From Curtobacterium sp. MCLR17_007 (GTDB taxonomy: Bacteria; Actinomycetota; Actinomycetes; Actinomycetales; Microbacteriaceae): a stretch of DNA of 64,000 nucleotides. The stretch spans positions 1,116,001 through 1,180,000 of the forward strand of contig NZ_CP126271.1 of NCBI RefSeq assembly GCF_003234655.2. Direction: 5' to 3'. Below, in pieces: positions 30,681 through 36,265 of this stretch. Position 1 is the stretch's first letter, and every line of letters begins with the position of its first letter. The notes under the pieces were generated by a model. The model saw nothing but the letters and a program-made list of their open reading frames with translations, did no database searches and was not told the DNA's origin. The translations under genes and the position numbers were made by a program.

Positions 30681-31100
30681 GTGTCCGACTTCGAAGAGAC
30701 CCTCGTCCTCGTCAAGCCCGACGGCGTCGCCCGCCAGCTCACCGGTGAGATCCTGCGCCGGATCGAGGCCAAGGGCTACGAGATCGTCGACCTGAAGATG
30801 CTGACCGCACCGCGCGACCTGCTCGACGCGCACTACGAGGAACACCAGGGCAAGCCGTTCTTCGAACCGCTGGTCGAGTTCATGCAGTCCGGCCCGGTCG
30901 TCGCCGTGCGCGTCGCCGGCAACGCGGCGATCGCGGGCTTCCGCTCGCTCGCCGGCACCACCGACCCGACCGGCGCCGCGCCCGGCACCATCCGCGGTGA
31001 CCTCGGCCGCGACTGGGGCCTCAAGGTCCAGCAGAACCTGGTGCACGGCTCGGACAGCCCCGAGTCCGCCGCGCGCGAGCTCGGCCTCTGGTTCGCCTGA
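30681..31100 (+). CDS. ndk: nucleoside diphosphate kinase
   Basis: 139 residues from GTG 30681 with CAGGGAG upstream. The phosphorylated His122 lies in NLVHGSDS, and the nucleotide-binding pattern is PGTIRGDLG. Length and motifs are standard. It equilibrates nucleoside tri- and diphosphates and is the last gene of the ileS-folC-ndk run, followed by a very strong hairpin terminator. Confidence 0.97.
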   Translation: MSDFEETLVLVKPDGVARQLTGEILRRIEAKGYEIVDLKMLTAPRDLLDAHYEEHQGKPFFEPLVEFMQSGPVVAVRVAGNAAIAGFRSLAGTTDPTGAAPGTIRGDLGRDWGLKVQQNLVHGSDSPESAARELGLWFA

Positions 31101-31153
31101 GCGGTCGCCGCGCCTGACGGCGCTCGCGCTCGCTGCTGCGCTTCCGCGCAACC

Positions 31154-31197
31154 GAAAGCGCCCCGCGCCACGTGACCACGTGGCGCGGGGCGCTTTC
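31154..31197 (+). terminator. strong hairpin terminator after ndk
   Basis: Arms 31154-31174 and 31177-31197 (beginning GAAAGCGCCCCGCGCC) are exact complements over 21 bases with a two-base centre, flanked by A-rich/T-rich ends (GAAAG...CTTTC), so it works in both directions. Confidence 0.85.
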
Positions 31198-31215
31198 CGT
31201 TGTGCGAGCGGCAGC

Positions 31216-31254
31216 GGGCCGCTGCCGCGGGCCGCTGCCGCGGGCCGCTGCCGC
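31216..31254. repeat. three tandem copies of a 13-bp unit
   Basis: GGGCCGCTGCCGC is repeated exactly three times head to tail between the ndk terminator and the palindrome at 31268. There is no reading frame of note. It looks like a slippage-type minisatellite. Confidence 0.7.
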
Positions 31255-31267
31255 GGCGCACGCTGCC

Positions 31268-31342
31268 TCGCACCCCTGCGCCGACGTCGCGCCCCCGCAG
31301 GACGGGGCGCGACGTCCGCCCGGGGGTGCGATCCGTCAGCGT
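31268..31342. repeat. nested extragenic palindrome (copy B)
   Basis: Inner arms GACGTCGCGCCCC (31283-31295) and its complement (31304-31316) are nested within outer arms TCGCACCCC (31268-31276) and GGGGTGCGA (31323-31331), followed by TCCGTCAGCGTG. The order and much of the sequence match copy A at 9936-10012. The rest of 31101-31420 holds no gene that I can support. Confidence 0.7.
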
Positions 31343-31420
31343 GTGCCGCCGCGGCGCGGCGCCCCGAACGACGACGGCCCCGCACTCCGGGAGCGCGGGG
31401 CCGTCCTGACGGGGAGCGGG

Positions 31421-32393: not shown

Positions 32394-32993
32394 TCAGATG
32401 AAGTCGAGGACCCGCGGGAACATGATCAGGATCGTCACCGCGATGACCAGGTAGTTCGCCAGCGGGAACGCCCAGCAGAACGGCAGCAGCGCCCGCCCGA
32501 CCCGACGCGCCCGGGGACCGAAGGTGCCGCGCGACATGTTCCAGATGGTGAACACCCAGAACATGGGGATGGTCATCGCCCAGACGAGCATGCACCAGGG
32601 GCACAGCGCGCCGATCGACCACACGGTCTGGGTGAAGAGCCAGGTGACGAAGACCCATGCCACGAGGAGCCCGGCGTTGAACGCCACGAGGAAGCCCCGC
32701 GAACCGCGGAACCCCGCGAGCAGCACGGCGCCGACGGCGATCGGCGCGACGAAGCCCATCAGTCCCAGCAGCGGGTTCGGGAAGCCGAGCAGGTGTCCCT
32801 GTGCACTCGTCATCACGTCCGAGCAGTTGATGAACGGGTTGACGTCGCAGCTGAGCGCCGCCTTCGGGTTCTCGTACTTCGCGAACTCGTCGAGGACGAG
32901 TCGGAACGCCGCGTACAGGGCGACCGCCCCGGTGACGAGCAGCAGCACGGCGACGGCGACGGGACGACGGGTGGTGGGTGCAGTCGTGGTCAC
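32394..32993 (-). CDS. VKOR-family quinone-linked disulfide reoxidase
   Basis: 199 residues from GTG 32993. The loop pair Cys49/Cys57 (SCDVNPFINCSD) and the active CPWC (131-134) at the end of a membrane helix are all present, with four or more membrane helices. VKOR passes electrons from DsbA-like partners to quinone. It is followed by the DsbA-like gene, giving a complete oxidative-folding pair. An upstream in-frame start at 33035 exists but would put a polar HCys-containing stretch ahead of the conserved N-terminus, so GTG 32993 is preferred. Confidence 0.9.
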   Translation of the reverse strand: MTTTAPTTRRPVAVAVLLLVTGAVALYAAFRLVLDEFAKYENPKAALSCDVNPFINCSDVMTSAQGHLLGFPNPLLGLMGFVAPIAVGAVLLAGFRGSRGFLVAFNAGLLVAWVFVTWLFTQTVWSIGALCPWCMLVWAMTIPMFWVFTIWNMSRGTFGPRARRVGRALLPFCWAFPLANYLVIAVTILIMFPRVLDFI

Positions 32994-33052
32994 GCCGACA
33001 TGATGACACGTTCGTTCTGCGCCTTCCTCCGTCACGCGTGCGATGATGGGGA

Positions 33053-33136
33053 GGTCACACGGGAGATCCGTGTGGCACAGCGAGCTTTCCGGGCACCAGC
33101 CCGGGTGAACAGGTGCGGTGAGAGCGCACCGTGACC
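33053..33136 (+). ncRNA. structured leader upstream of RNase E/G with a P12-like hairpin
   Basis: Three hairpins can be drawn by eye. CACACGG/CCGTGTG is at 33056-33062 and 33068-33074. CCGGGC/GCCCGG with loop ACCA is at 33089-33104. GGTGCG/CGCACC with loop GTGAGAG is at 33112-33130. GGTCAC at 33053 and GTGACC at 33131-33136 could close or compete with the whole. The third hairpin and its preceding GGGTGAAC closely resemble the GGGUGAAA...GGUGCGGUAAGAGCGCACC segment (P12) of bacterial RNase P RNA. The remaining 187 bp to the rne ATG hold no gene I can support. This is a cis-regulatory candidate; it was not folded by software. Confidence 0.5.
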
Positions 33137-33322
33137 GGACGACGCGTCACTCCGACGCCGAACCGAGCGGAGCCGGGTGCTCCGGACGGTCCGAGCGCAC
33201 GGCAGGTCGACGCCGGACGGTCACTGACCAGCGAGTGCGGGCGGCGTCGCCGCCGTCCGCCACAACGACAGGATTCCCGCCGCCCCTCGGGGTGGGAGCG
33301 GGGCTGAGGAGTGCACCAGGCC

Positions 33323-36265
33323 ATGGTGGAGAACGACAACAACAGCAACCAGAACACCGACGATGCCGCACCGAAGCGACGCGGCCGCCTGTTCGGCGGA
33401 CGCCGCGCCCGGTCGGCAGGCACCCTGGAGGCCCGCAACGGCTCACAGGGACCGGCCGACGGTGCCGACACGGCGACCCCGGACACCGGGTTGGTCGAGC
33501 AGACCGGCACGGATGCGGCGCCCGAGACGGGCTCCGTCTCGGTGGAGGTGCAGTCGGTCACGACGACCGACGCCCCGGACGACGTCAGCACGTTGACCGG
33601 TGACGTCCCGGTCGTCGACGTCGCCGCAGCGGCCGCCGAGGCCGAGGCCACCGCGGTCGAGGAGTCGGGCGCGACCGAGGAGCCGGACACGGTCGAGCAG
33701 TCGGGCACGGACGTGCAGTCGGACGTCGTCGCTCCGGTCGAGTCGCACGAGGCCGATGCGGTCGCCCCGGAGCAGGCCGTCGAGACGGCACCGGAGCAGG
33801 CCGACGCGGTCGCGCCGCCGGAGCCCGTCGTCCCCCGTGCCACCTCGACACTCAGCCTGATCTTCCACGCCCCGGTCCTGCCGGAGCTGCCGGCCCGCTC
33901 GTCGCGCATCGACCGCTCGGACCGGTTCGACCGCTCGGACCGGTTCGACCGTTCCGAGGGCACCGACCGGGCCGAGCGCTCGGAGCGGTCCGACTGGGAC
34001 GACGACGACGAGGACTTCGGCGGTGGCAGCCGCCGCCGCACGCGCCGTCGGGGCACGAGCGCCGACCGCGAGCCGCGTGACCACCAGGAGCCGCGTCGCC
34101 GCGAGGTCGAGCTCATCACCGAGCCCCAGCGGATCAAGGGCTCCACCCGCCTCGAGGCGAAGAAGCAGCGCCGTCGCGACGGCCGTGACGCCGGGCGCCG
34201 CCGCCAGGTCGTGACCGAGGACGAGTTCCTCGCCCGCCGTGAGAGCGTCGACCGCCAGATGATCGTCCGCTCGAGCGCGCAGAAGATCGAGATCGGCGTC
34301 ATCGAGGACAACGTCCTCGCCGAGCACTACGTCACCAAGTCCCACAACGTCTCCCTCATCGGGAACGTGTACCTGGGCAAGGTGCAGAACGTCCTGCCCT
34401 CGATGGAGGCGGCGTTCGTCGACATCGGCCGCGGTCGCAACGCCGTGCTCTACGCCGGTGAGGTCGACTGGAACTCGGTCGAGACGGGCAACCACGGCCG
34501 TCGCATCGAGGCCGCGCTCAAGCCGGGGGACAAGGTCCTCGTGCAGGTCACGAAGGACCCGGTCGGCCACAAGGGCGCCCGCCTGACCAGCCAGGTCTCG
34601 CTGCCGGGCCGCTACCTGGTCTACGTGCCGAACGGCTCGATGAACGGCATCTCGCGCAAGCTCCCGGACACCGAGCGTGCCCGCCTGAAGAAGATCCTCA
34701 AAGAGGTCCTGCCGGAGCACGCGGGCGTCATCGTCCGCACCGCTGCGGAGGGCGCGACCGAGGAGCAGCTCACCCGCGACGTGCAGCGCCTGACCGCGCA
34801 GTGGGAGGCCATCCAGAAGAAGGTCGAGCACGGGCACGCCCCGGTCATGCTCCACTCGGAGCCGGACCTGCTCGTCAAGATCGTGCGTGACGTCTTCAAC
34901 GAGGACTTCACGAAGCTGATCATCGACGGCGATGCCGCACGCGAGACCATCGAGGAGTACCTCGACGCCGTCGCGCCCGACCTCAAGGACCGCGTCGAGC
35001 TCTACGACGGCCCGGACTCCTTCGAGGAGCACCGTCTCAACGAGCAGATCGAGAAGGCCCTCGACCGCAAGGTCTGGCTGCCGTCCGGCGGTTCGCTCGT
35101 GATCGACCGCACCGAGGCCATGACGGTCGTCGACGTCAACACGGGCAAGTTCGTCGGTTCCGGGGGCAACCTCGAGGAGACCGTCACCAAGAACAACCTC
35201 GAGGCCGCCGAGGAGCTCGTCCGTCAGCTCCGCCTGCGGGACATCGGCGGCATCATCGTCGTCGACTTCATCGACATGGTGCTCGAGACGAACCGTGACC
35301 TCGTGCTGCGCCGCCTGATGGAGTGCCTGAGCCGCGACCGCACGAAGCACCAGGTCGCCGAGGTCACCTCGCTCGGCCTCGTGCAGATGACCCGCAAGAA
35401 GATCGGCGTCGGGCTGCGCGAGTCGCTCGAAGAGGTCAACGCGAAGGTCAACGACAACAACGCTGACCCGGGCCCGTCGAAGGGCCGCCGCAAGGCCCGC
35501 AGCGGGAACGACAGCGGCAACGGCAACGGGAACGGCAACCAGAACGGACAGCGCGGTGGCGCTGACCAGAAGCCGTCGCAGGCGCACCAGATCACCGACG
35601 ACGTGAAGAACGCGCTGTCCCGGATCGCGGCGTCGACCATCGCGCACGACGAGGTCGCCGCGTCCGTCCCGTCCACCCCCACCTCGGCGCCGTCGCACGA
35701 GGCACCCGCTGCAGCGTCTGGGTCGTCCTCGGATGCCGGTGCCCCGGACAACGAGCCCGAGTCCACCGGTGGCGGCAAGCGTCGTCGCCGGCGCGGGGGT
35801 CGTGCGAGCTCCGAGCAGTCCGCGCCCACCGCGACCGAGGGCATCCTGACGGTGTCGGCACCGTCCTCGACCACGGCGCCCGCTGCGGCGTCGGAGTCGA
35901 CGGCTCCCGAGGCCGGCGCGCCCGTGTCCGCCGCACCGCAGCGCGCGACGGAGCCGGCCGCGTCAGCTGCTCCGGACCAGGCGGCTGCGCCGACCCGGCG
36001 TCGCGTGTCCTCCTCGGCCCCGGTGACCCCGGCCGACACGACCGTCGCGATCCTCGACATCCCCGTCGCGGTGACGAAGCGCGAGGCCCGCAAGGCGCCG
36101 GATGCCGACTCGCTCCTGGACTCGGTGCTGCAGGCGCTGCCCGAGCCCAAGCAGCCCGGCCAGGGTCGTTCGCGGTCCCGTCGCGTGTCGTCGGGCAGCA
36201 TCAGCGCCCCGGCGACGTCCGGCGAGACCCCGACCGACGACGGCGCCGTGATCCTGGGGAACTGA
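33323..36265 (+). CDS. rne: ribonuclease E/G
   Basis: About 980 residues from ATG 33323; AGGAG at 33307-33311 lies 11 bp upstream, and a GTG at 33311 is in frame. A 300-residue disordered N-terminal extension (acidic Val/Ala/Asp-rich, then RSDRFDRSDRFDRSE repeats and Arg-rich RRRTRRR) precedes the S1 domain (NVYLGKVQNVLPSMEAAFVDIG) and the catalytic DNase-I-like domain. The Mg-binding motif is MTVVDVNTGKFVG with a second acidic site at VVDFIDM. A roughly 270-residue Pro/Ala/Ser-rich C-terminal tail follows. As in other actinobacteria, the core sits between unstructured arms. It starts mRNA decay and rRNA processing. Confidence 0.95.
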   Translation: MVENDNNSNQNTDDAAPKRRGRLFGGRRARSAGTLEARNGSQGPADGADTATPDTGLVEQTGTDAAPETGSVSVEVQSVTTTDAPDDVSTLTGDVPVVDVAAAAAEAEATAVEESGATEEPDTVEQSGTDVQSDVVAPVESHEADAVAPEQAVETAPEQADAVAPPEPVVPRATSTLSLIFHAPVLPELPARSSRIDRSDRFDRSDRFDRSEGTDRAERSERSDWDDDDEDFGGGSRRRTRRRGTSADREPRDHQEPRRREVELITEPQRIKGSTRLEAKKQRRRDGRDAGRRRQVVTEDEFLARRESVDRQMIVRSSAQKIEIGVIEDNVLAEHYVTKSHNVSLIGNVYLGKVQNVLPSMEAAFVDIGRGRNAVLYAGEVDWNSVETGNHGRRIEAALKPGDKVLVQVTKDPVGHKGARLTSQVSLPGRYLVYVPNGSMNGISRKLPDTERARLKKILKEVLPEHAGVIVRTAAEGATEEQLTRDVQRLTAQWEAIQKKVEHGHAPVMLHSEPDLLVKIVRDVFNEDFTKLIIDGDAARETIEEYLDAVAPDLKDRVELYDGPDSFEEHRLNEQIEKALDRKVWLPSGGSLVIDRTEAMTVVDVNTGKFVGSGGNLEETVTKNNLEAAEELVRQLRLRDIGGIIVVDFIDMVLETNRDLVLRRLMECLSRDRTKHQVAEVTSLGLVQMTRKKIGVGLRESLEEVNAKVNDNNADPGPSKGRRKARSGNDSGNGNGNGNQNGQRGGADQKPSQAHQITDDVKNALSRIAASTIAHDEVAASVPSTPTSAPSHEAPAAASGSSSDAGAPDNEPESTGGGKRRRRRGGRASSEQSAPTATEGILTVSAPSSTTAPAAASESTAPEAGAPVSAAPQRATEPAASAAPDQAAAPTRRRVSSSAPVTPADTTVAILDIPVAVTKREARKAPDADSLLDSVLQALPEPKQPGQGRSRSRRVSSGSISAPATSGETPTDDGAVILGN

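Follow-up and report, generated by a model that had tools for sequence, protein, structure and literature searches.

The GC-rich hairpins directly upstream of the RNase E/G gene (rne) of Curtobacterium sp. MCLR17_007 raise the question of whether they form a functional leader RNA, and if so which ribonuclease it serves. A sequence-only reading had proposed that the leader senses or autoregulates the level of RNase E or RNase P, and had likened its last hairpin to the P12 element of RNase P RNA. In the window, by which we mean the whole 64-kb stretch of DNA that was analysed, the ORF list places the leader folds between a divergent minus-strand ORF for a membrane protein (32394-33035), which we take to resemble vitamin K epoxide reductase, and rne (33323-36265). 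The domain PF10150 (Pfam) is found at the rne place in the strain's own genome, and the RNase E query segment of the Curtobacterium loci L081-L084 is 85-90% identical to that of the window. The features of the locus are as follows (↓, predicted cut):

33039..33047, plus strand: -10-like word TGCGATGAT, predicted leader promoter (sequence; pattern in relatives)
33054..33076, plus strand: hairpin 1, predicted transcript 5' end; stem 33054-33062 with 33068-33076, loop 33063-33067 (fold and covariation)
33077..33088, plus strand: linker with RNCUU (A-G↓C-U-U, 33083-33087), predicted to be cut by RNase E at 33084↓33085
33089..33104, plus strand: hairpin 2, CCGGGC/GCCCGG with a loop of 4 (fold and covariation)
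33112..33130, plus strand: hairpin 3, GGTGCG-GTGAGAG-CGCACC, RNase P-like (fold and covariation)
33131..33305, plus strand: remaining leader, conserved in the genus; RNAalifold stems without any pair changed on both sides
33306..33311, plus strand: Shine-Dalgarno-like GAGGAG (sequence)
33314..33328, plus strand: possible start-codon hairpin CACCA-GGCCA-TGGTG (family counts)
33323..36265, plus strand: rne, RNase E/G (ORF); ATG at 33323, earlier in-frame GTG at 33311

Further upstream in the window, at about 31050-31400 and downstream of an ORF that presumably is ndk, ORFs on both strands have the words KRPAPR and HVARGAF in common; this points to an inverted or a multiple repeat.

Covariation of the three hairpins within Curtobacterium

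The three hairpins are present in the sequence and in predicted folds at the positions first proposed for them, hairpin 2 comprising 7 pairs when 33088-33105 is counted in. Hairpin 3 as given above is that of the centroid of 33040-33140; minimum-energy folds pair its parts differently. The folding energy is mildly unusual (z -1.8 for 33040-33140 and -2.7 for 33051-33139), the minus strand also reaching -2.8. A DNA search matched 76 of 149 relatives, the majority being congeners, and the genus alignment (A1) was made from 24 of the best 30 loci, with L006, L009, L010, L020, L025 and L027 left out. Across these 24 sequences 95.0% of the cells of the three hairpins are paired and 10 of the 21 pairs are changed on both sides. 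Doubly changed cells number 43 versus 11.6 in shuffles, with none of 500 shuffles as high, and the covariation values collapse once the pairing partners are slid. By hairpin, pairs changed on both sides amount to 5/9 in hairpin 1, 2/6 in hairpin 2 and 3/6 in hairpin 3, the last being paired in 100% of cells (24/24 sequences) through stems as different as GGTGCG/CGCACC, GGCACG/CGTGCC, GGTGCT/AGCACC and GGTGCC/GGCGCC. A stem closing round all three hairpins (GUC/GAC) has no pair changed on both sides and is not claimed. Conservation within the genus reaches from the leader to the rne start codon.

A covariance model of the genus leader (R1) matched 20 of 199 genomes at E<=1, good scores being confined to members of the genus (the window's own genome G000, with G052 and G056, above 80 bits; G041, 46.7 bits). 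A match in G150 (E 0.006) lies at about 1593940, away from rne at 1883731, and was rejected. The expectation that the helices would be conserved and covary upstream of rne in relatives was thus borne out, all three covarying within the genus and hairpins 1 and 2 across the family, and we regard the structure of the leader as well supported.

A module next to the predicted promoter in Microbacteriaceae

We collected the regions upstream of rne from 77 Microbacteriaceae genomes, one per genus, and from 20 genomes of other families. The -10-like pattern TG[CTG]GATA[AC]T, from which the word in the window deviates by one base, precedes rne in 60 of the 77 family loci and in 6 of the 20 others; a promoter scan of 32950-33400 returned no sigma-70 site. 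As far as such a pattern can tell, finding this conserved word in front of hairpin 1 speaks against transcription starting only after 33136. The word TGCGATACT (TGTGATACT in L134) is also seen upstream of rne in L131, L134, L136, L148, L149, L151, L239, L248 and L258, which are loci from actinobacterial families other than Microbacteriaceae. A short leaderless ORF past it in these nine loci was considered and rejected, the frame being open for 145-624 codons upstream in eight of them (all but L248). This ORF matches no Pfam or NCBIfam family, and its 57 relatives include three with radical SAM names and one with PF10105. In these loci the word looks like part of the C-terminal coding end of the upstream gene, where it encodes C-A-I-L, and we therefore do not extend the promoter reading to other families.

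From the 60 family loci with the strict word 57 were kept, L174, L200 and L225 being excluded for implausible promoter-to-start geometry. In these 57 leaders the promoter word is usually followed by two hairpins with a linker between them. The family alignment (A2), which was structure-blind, comprises 48 leaders and the window, that is, 49 sequences from 48 genera; L165, L175, L177, L184, L207, L212, L215, L230 and L234 were excluded from it by eye for odd spacing, a choice that favours the model. In it changes on both sides affect each of the 10 pairs modelled for hairpin 1 and 3 of the 4 modelled for hairpin 2, and 77.7% of cells pair; the covariation score was reached by 0/500 shuffles and the count of doubly changed pairs by 2/500. 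Refitting 46 sequences to the model gave the same covariation picture, in an alignment of a kind that leans towards structure.

A model of this module (R2) scored the window at 27.6 bits, 8 more than the runner-up within the 64 kb, the window being itself part of the model. Among 110 family genomes 58 were matched at E<=0.1, with one match each, and 57 of these 58 matches precede the RNase E domain by 1.0-1.7 kb; because of this placement in whole genomes, the module is best read as a cis-element tied to RNase E. R2 recovered 43 of the 49 genomes that it was built from and missed 6, and of 61 genomes outside the model 15 were matched, 14 of them at rne (13 in genera already represented in the model) and one elsewhere (G410). 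The remaining 52 of the 110 family genomes gave no match, and the module is either not universal or too diverged for R2. In 58 loci mostly of other families R2 found nothing convincing, two matches with E 0.54 and 0.80 not being taken.

A conserved linker site resembling RNase E cleavage sites

The linker between hairpins 1 and 2 carries RNCUU, 25-50 nucleotides past the promoter word, in 48 of the 57 family leaders, with 39 matches at 40-44 nucleotides; elsewhere in the leaders the pattern occurs in 14 of 380 windows of comparison, and 8 of the 9 leaders that lack it have R-Y-U-U at the same place. According to text excerpts of PMC10641625, mycobacterial RNase E prefers RR↓CNU in vivo and RN↓CNU in vitro. 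The AG↓CUU of the Curtobacterium leader (33083-33087) fits RN↓CNU, a preference that is mycobacterial and not derived from Microbacteriaceae. The openness of RNCUU is not significantly above the leader average, either in thermodynamic folds (0.406 vs 0.379, p 0.19) or in local folds (0.487 vs 0.436, p 0.10). In the local fold the six bases before the site and the three that follow the C tend to be unpaired and the R-N-C itself is often paired; in 16 of the 48 leaders RNCUU stands in a GCC-6nt-GGC context that is able to pair. In L230 and in L110, a Cryobacterium, a GCTTAA linker after hairpin 1 is tandemly repeated about three to four times, which looks like a multiplication of the predicted cut site. 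A pseudoknot between a linker GGCUU and a UAGCC loop, looked for by eye, was inconsistent between genera and was dropped.

Recurrence of the hairpin 3 loop

Hairpins of at least 4 bp with a GUGA-N-AG loop are found in 14 of the 57 family leaders, 13 of them outside Curtobacterium, versus a mean of 0.06 in shuffles and none for five control loops. The loops observed are GUGACAG or GUGAGAG, on varying stems, and L189, L193 and L196 each have two copies in one leader with differing stems. Directly before the GUGA-N-AG hairpin, 11 of the 14 leaders have a hairpin with a UAGCCAGU-type loop, a pattern that occurs in 23 of the 57 leaders versus 0.81 when shuffled and that was written after the sequences had been viewed. 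In an alignment of this hairpin pair (A4, 13 sequences) 6 of 10 pairs are changed on both sides and 97.7% of cells pair, a share that is partly by construction since the sequences were selected for both hairpins.

At E<=0.05 a model of the hairpin pair (R3) found 45 places in 41 of 149 family genomes. For 34 of these the position of rne is known (23 by script and 11 weaker ones by eye), 27 lying upstream of rne and 7 elsewhere; at E<=0.0033 all 20 of 20 places lie upstream of rne, 8 of the 20 genomes being outside the model. Curtobacterium has hairpin 3 without the UAGCCAGU-type neighbour and gives no R3 match. Across the class R3 matched 5 of 196 genomes at E<=0.02, and tblastn found no RNase E in the loci of about 3 kb; these matches were put down to chance. 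A GUGACAG hairpin also occurs upstream of rne in a Salinibacterium MAG (L097) and in two Nocardioides loci (L139 and L140), where it need not be of common origin. Another hairpin, GCNACC-AGAGCCANNAGCC-GGTNGC, appears to recur in the middle of the leader in named family loci such as L085, L088, L099 and L103.

Relationship to known rne leaders

None of the Rfam families scores at its cut-off in the leader. Neither RF00040 (rne5) nor RF01756 (rne-II) matches in the 64-kb window or in 16 named Microbacteriaceae-type rne loci, and neither appears up to E 5 in 32950-33400. Like the Curtobacterium leader, the enterobacterial rne5 is structured and lies directly upstream of rne, and feedback by RNase E, known for E. 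coli, is what we propose here; the Curtobacterium leader differs from rne5 in having no Rfam match, apparently in its hairpins, and in its C-type linker site. RNase E feedback through the E. coli leader is a precedent cited in PMC10989929 and PMC10641625. The rne-II RNA of Pseudomonadales, according to excerpts of PMC2864571 a conserved structured RNA upstream of RNase E genes, is alike in kind, with a different lineage and no Rfam match to the present leader. In Synechocystis RNase E cuts its own rne 5' UTR at a single conserved U-rich site, with autoregulation indicated (PMC10989929, excerpts). That site is a run of six U, whereas the one predicted here is RN-C-U-U between two covarying hairpins.

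Among actinobacteria, replacement of the rne promoter and 5' UTR in M. smegmatis lengthened the half-life of the rne transcript (PMC10641625); in the text of that paper the string 'autoregulat' occurs once, in the reference list. Within the excerpts of PMC3848588 and PMC10126417 rne leaders are unmentioned, and the parts of the open-licence PMC literature that were covered yielded no description of an actinobacterial rne leader RNA. The leader belongs to neither known Rfam family of rne leaders; because structured rne leaders are already known as a kind and neither family fits, we regard it as a new form within that kind.

Proposed function of the leader

The leader is conserved and covarying, is placed at rne and contains a conserved site that fits a published cleavage preference. 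We give roughly an even chance to the proposal that 33053-33322 is a structured 5' UTR of rne and a cis-element that most likely lets RNase E restrain its own synthesis. The rne transcript would begin at hairpin 1, at about 33053, with its 5' end shielded; RNase E would enter internally and cut the linker between hairpins 1 and 2 at RN↓YUU, which we infer to be 33084↓33085 here. The cut would leave a 5'-monophosphate end, so that the rne mRNA would decay faster. With RNase E engaged on other RNAs, the leader would survive and more enzyme would be made, closing the feedback. The GUGA(C/G)AG loop of hairpin 3 might be read by RNase E or a partner, which is a guess.

A possible though doubtful alternative is that the leader is a conserved stability or translation element, which sets a fixed level of rne mRNA or is acted on by a protein or small RNA in trans, with no RNase E feedback. 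Covarying hairpins with a fixed GUGA(C/G)AG loop would suit such a binding site, and the RNCUU site is not especially open in folds. The possible start-codon hairpin is also common, CACCA/TGGTG being present at the start in 51 of the 75 family loci with an assigned start; compensating changes in it are few, the pair was not seen in 19 loci of other families, and its conservation may have reasons other than a hairpin. On its own, however, this alternative leaves unexplained both the conserved RNCUU of the linker and the near-exclusive placement at rne.

It appears improbable that the leader acts as a riboswitch or transcription attenuator in response to a small molecule or stress. The leader is indeed long and structured, with several conserved loops, but no intrinsic terminator is found on the plus strand in 32950-33400, no Rfam riboswitch matches in the window or the 16 named rne loci, and the number of stems and loops varies between genera, unlike a fixed ligand pocket. 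Still less credible is a free-standing small RNA encoded upstream of rne and not part of its mRNA: its own -10-like word and compact structured 5' end would suit one, but again no plus-strand terminator was found before rne, and conservation in the genus continues to the rne start codon.

The resemblance to RNase P RNA bears on the remaining part of the original proposal, that RNase P might be sensed. The strain has a single RNase P RNA, located elsewhere (G000:C1:1689018-1689374, 277.4 bits), with the P12 hairpin CGGTGGT-GTAAGAG-ACCACC, which is unlike hairpin 3 in stem and loop; the likeness noted earlier is presumably to the P12 consensus of other bacteria. Host P12 and hairpin 3 have in common the loop form G-U-R-A-N-A-G of P12 in type A RNase P RNA (RF00010), and differ in stem, flanks and everything else. 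The preceding GGGTGAAC (GGGTGAA box), also taken as RNase P-like, did not hold up, being present in 1 of 30 genus rows and, as 1 of 19 regex matches, in this strain only. That hairpin 3 copies or mimics part of P12 in order to sense RNase P is therefore barely conceivable: the letters are close in this strain and the loop form agrees with host P12, but the host stem differs and its loop is GUAAGAG, hairpin 3 stems covary freely in the genus, the box is confined as described, GUAA-N-AG hairpins occur in 0 of 57 family leaders, and RF00010, like the rest of Rfam, has no match in the leader. Hence what stands of the initial interpretation is the conserved structured leader, with the tie to RNase E as its best reading, and the RNase P-like letters themselves; the link to RNase P falls away.

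Returning to feedback by RNase E, we suggest tentatively that the rne mRNAs of Microbacteriaceae may open with a modular sensor of a new type, made up of a 5' lock hairpin, a C-type RNase E cut site and GUGA(C/G)AG hairpins, single or in tandem, to which RNase E or a degradosome partner would bind. If true, this would be an independent invention of rne feedback, and the loops would define a new RNA-protein recognition pair. The covered parts of the open-licence PMC literature did not explain how the level of RNase E is set in actinobacteria. Because the leader offers a defined element with defined loops and a predicted site of cleavage, RNase E feedback outside proteobacteria and cyanobacteria becomes directly testable. 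If the feedback is real, unrelated leader RNAs would do the same job in several lineages.
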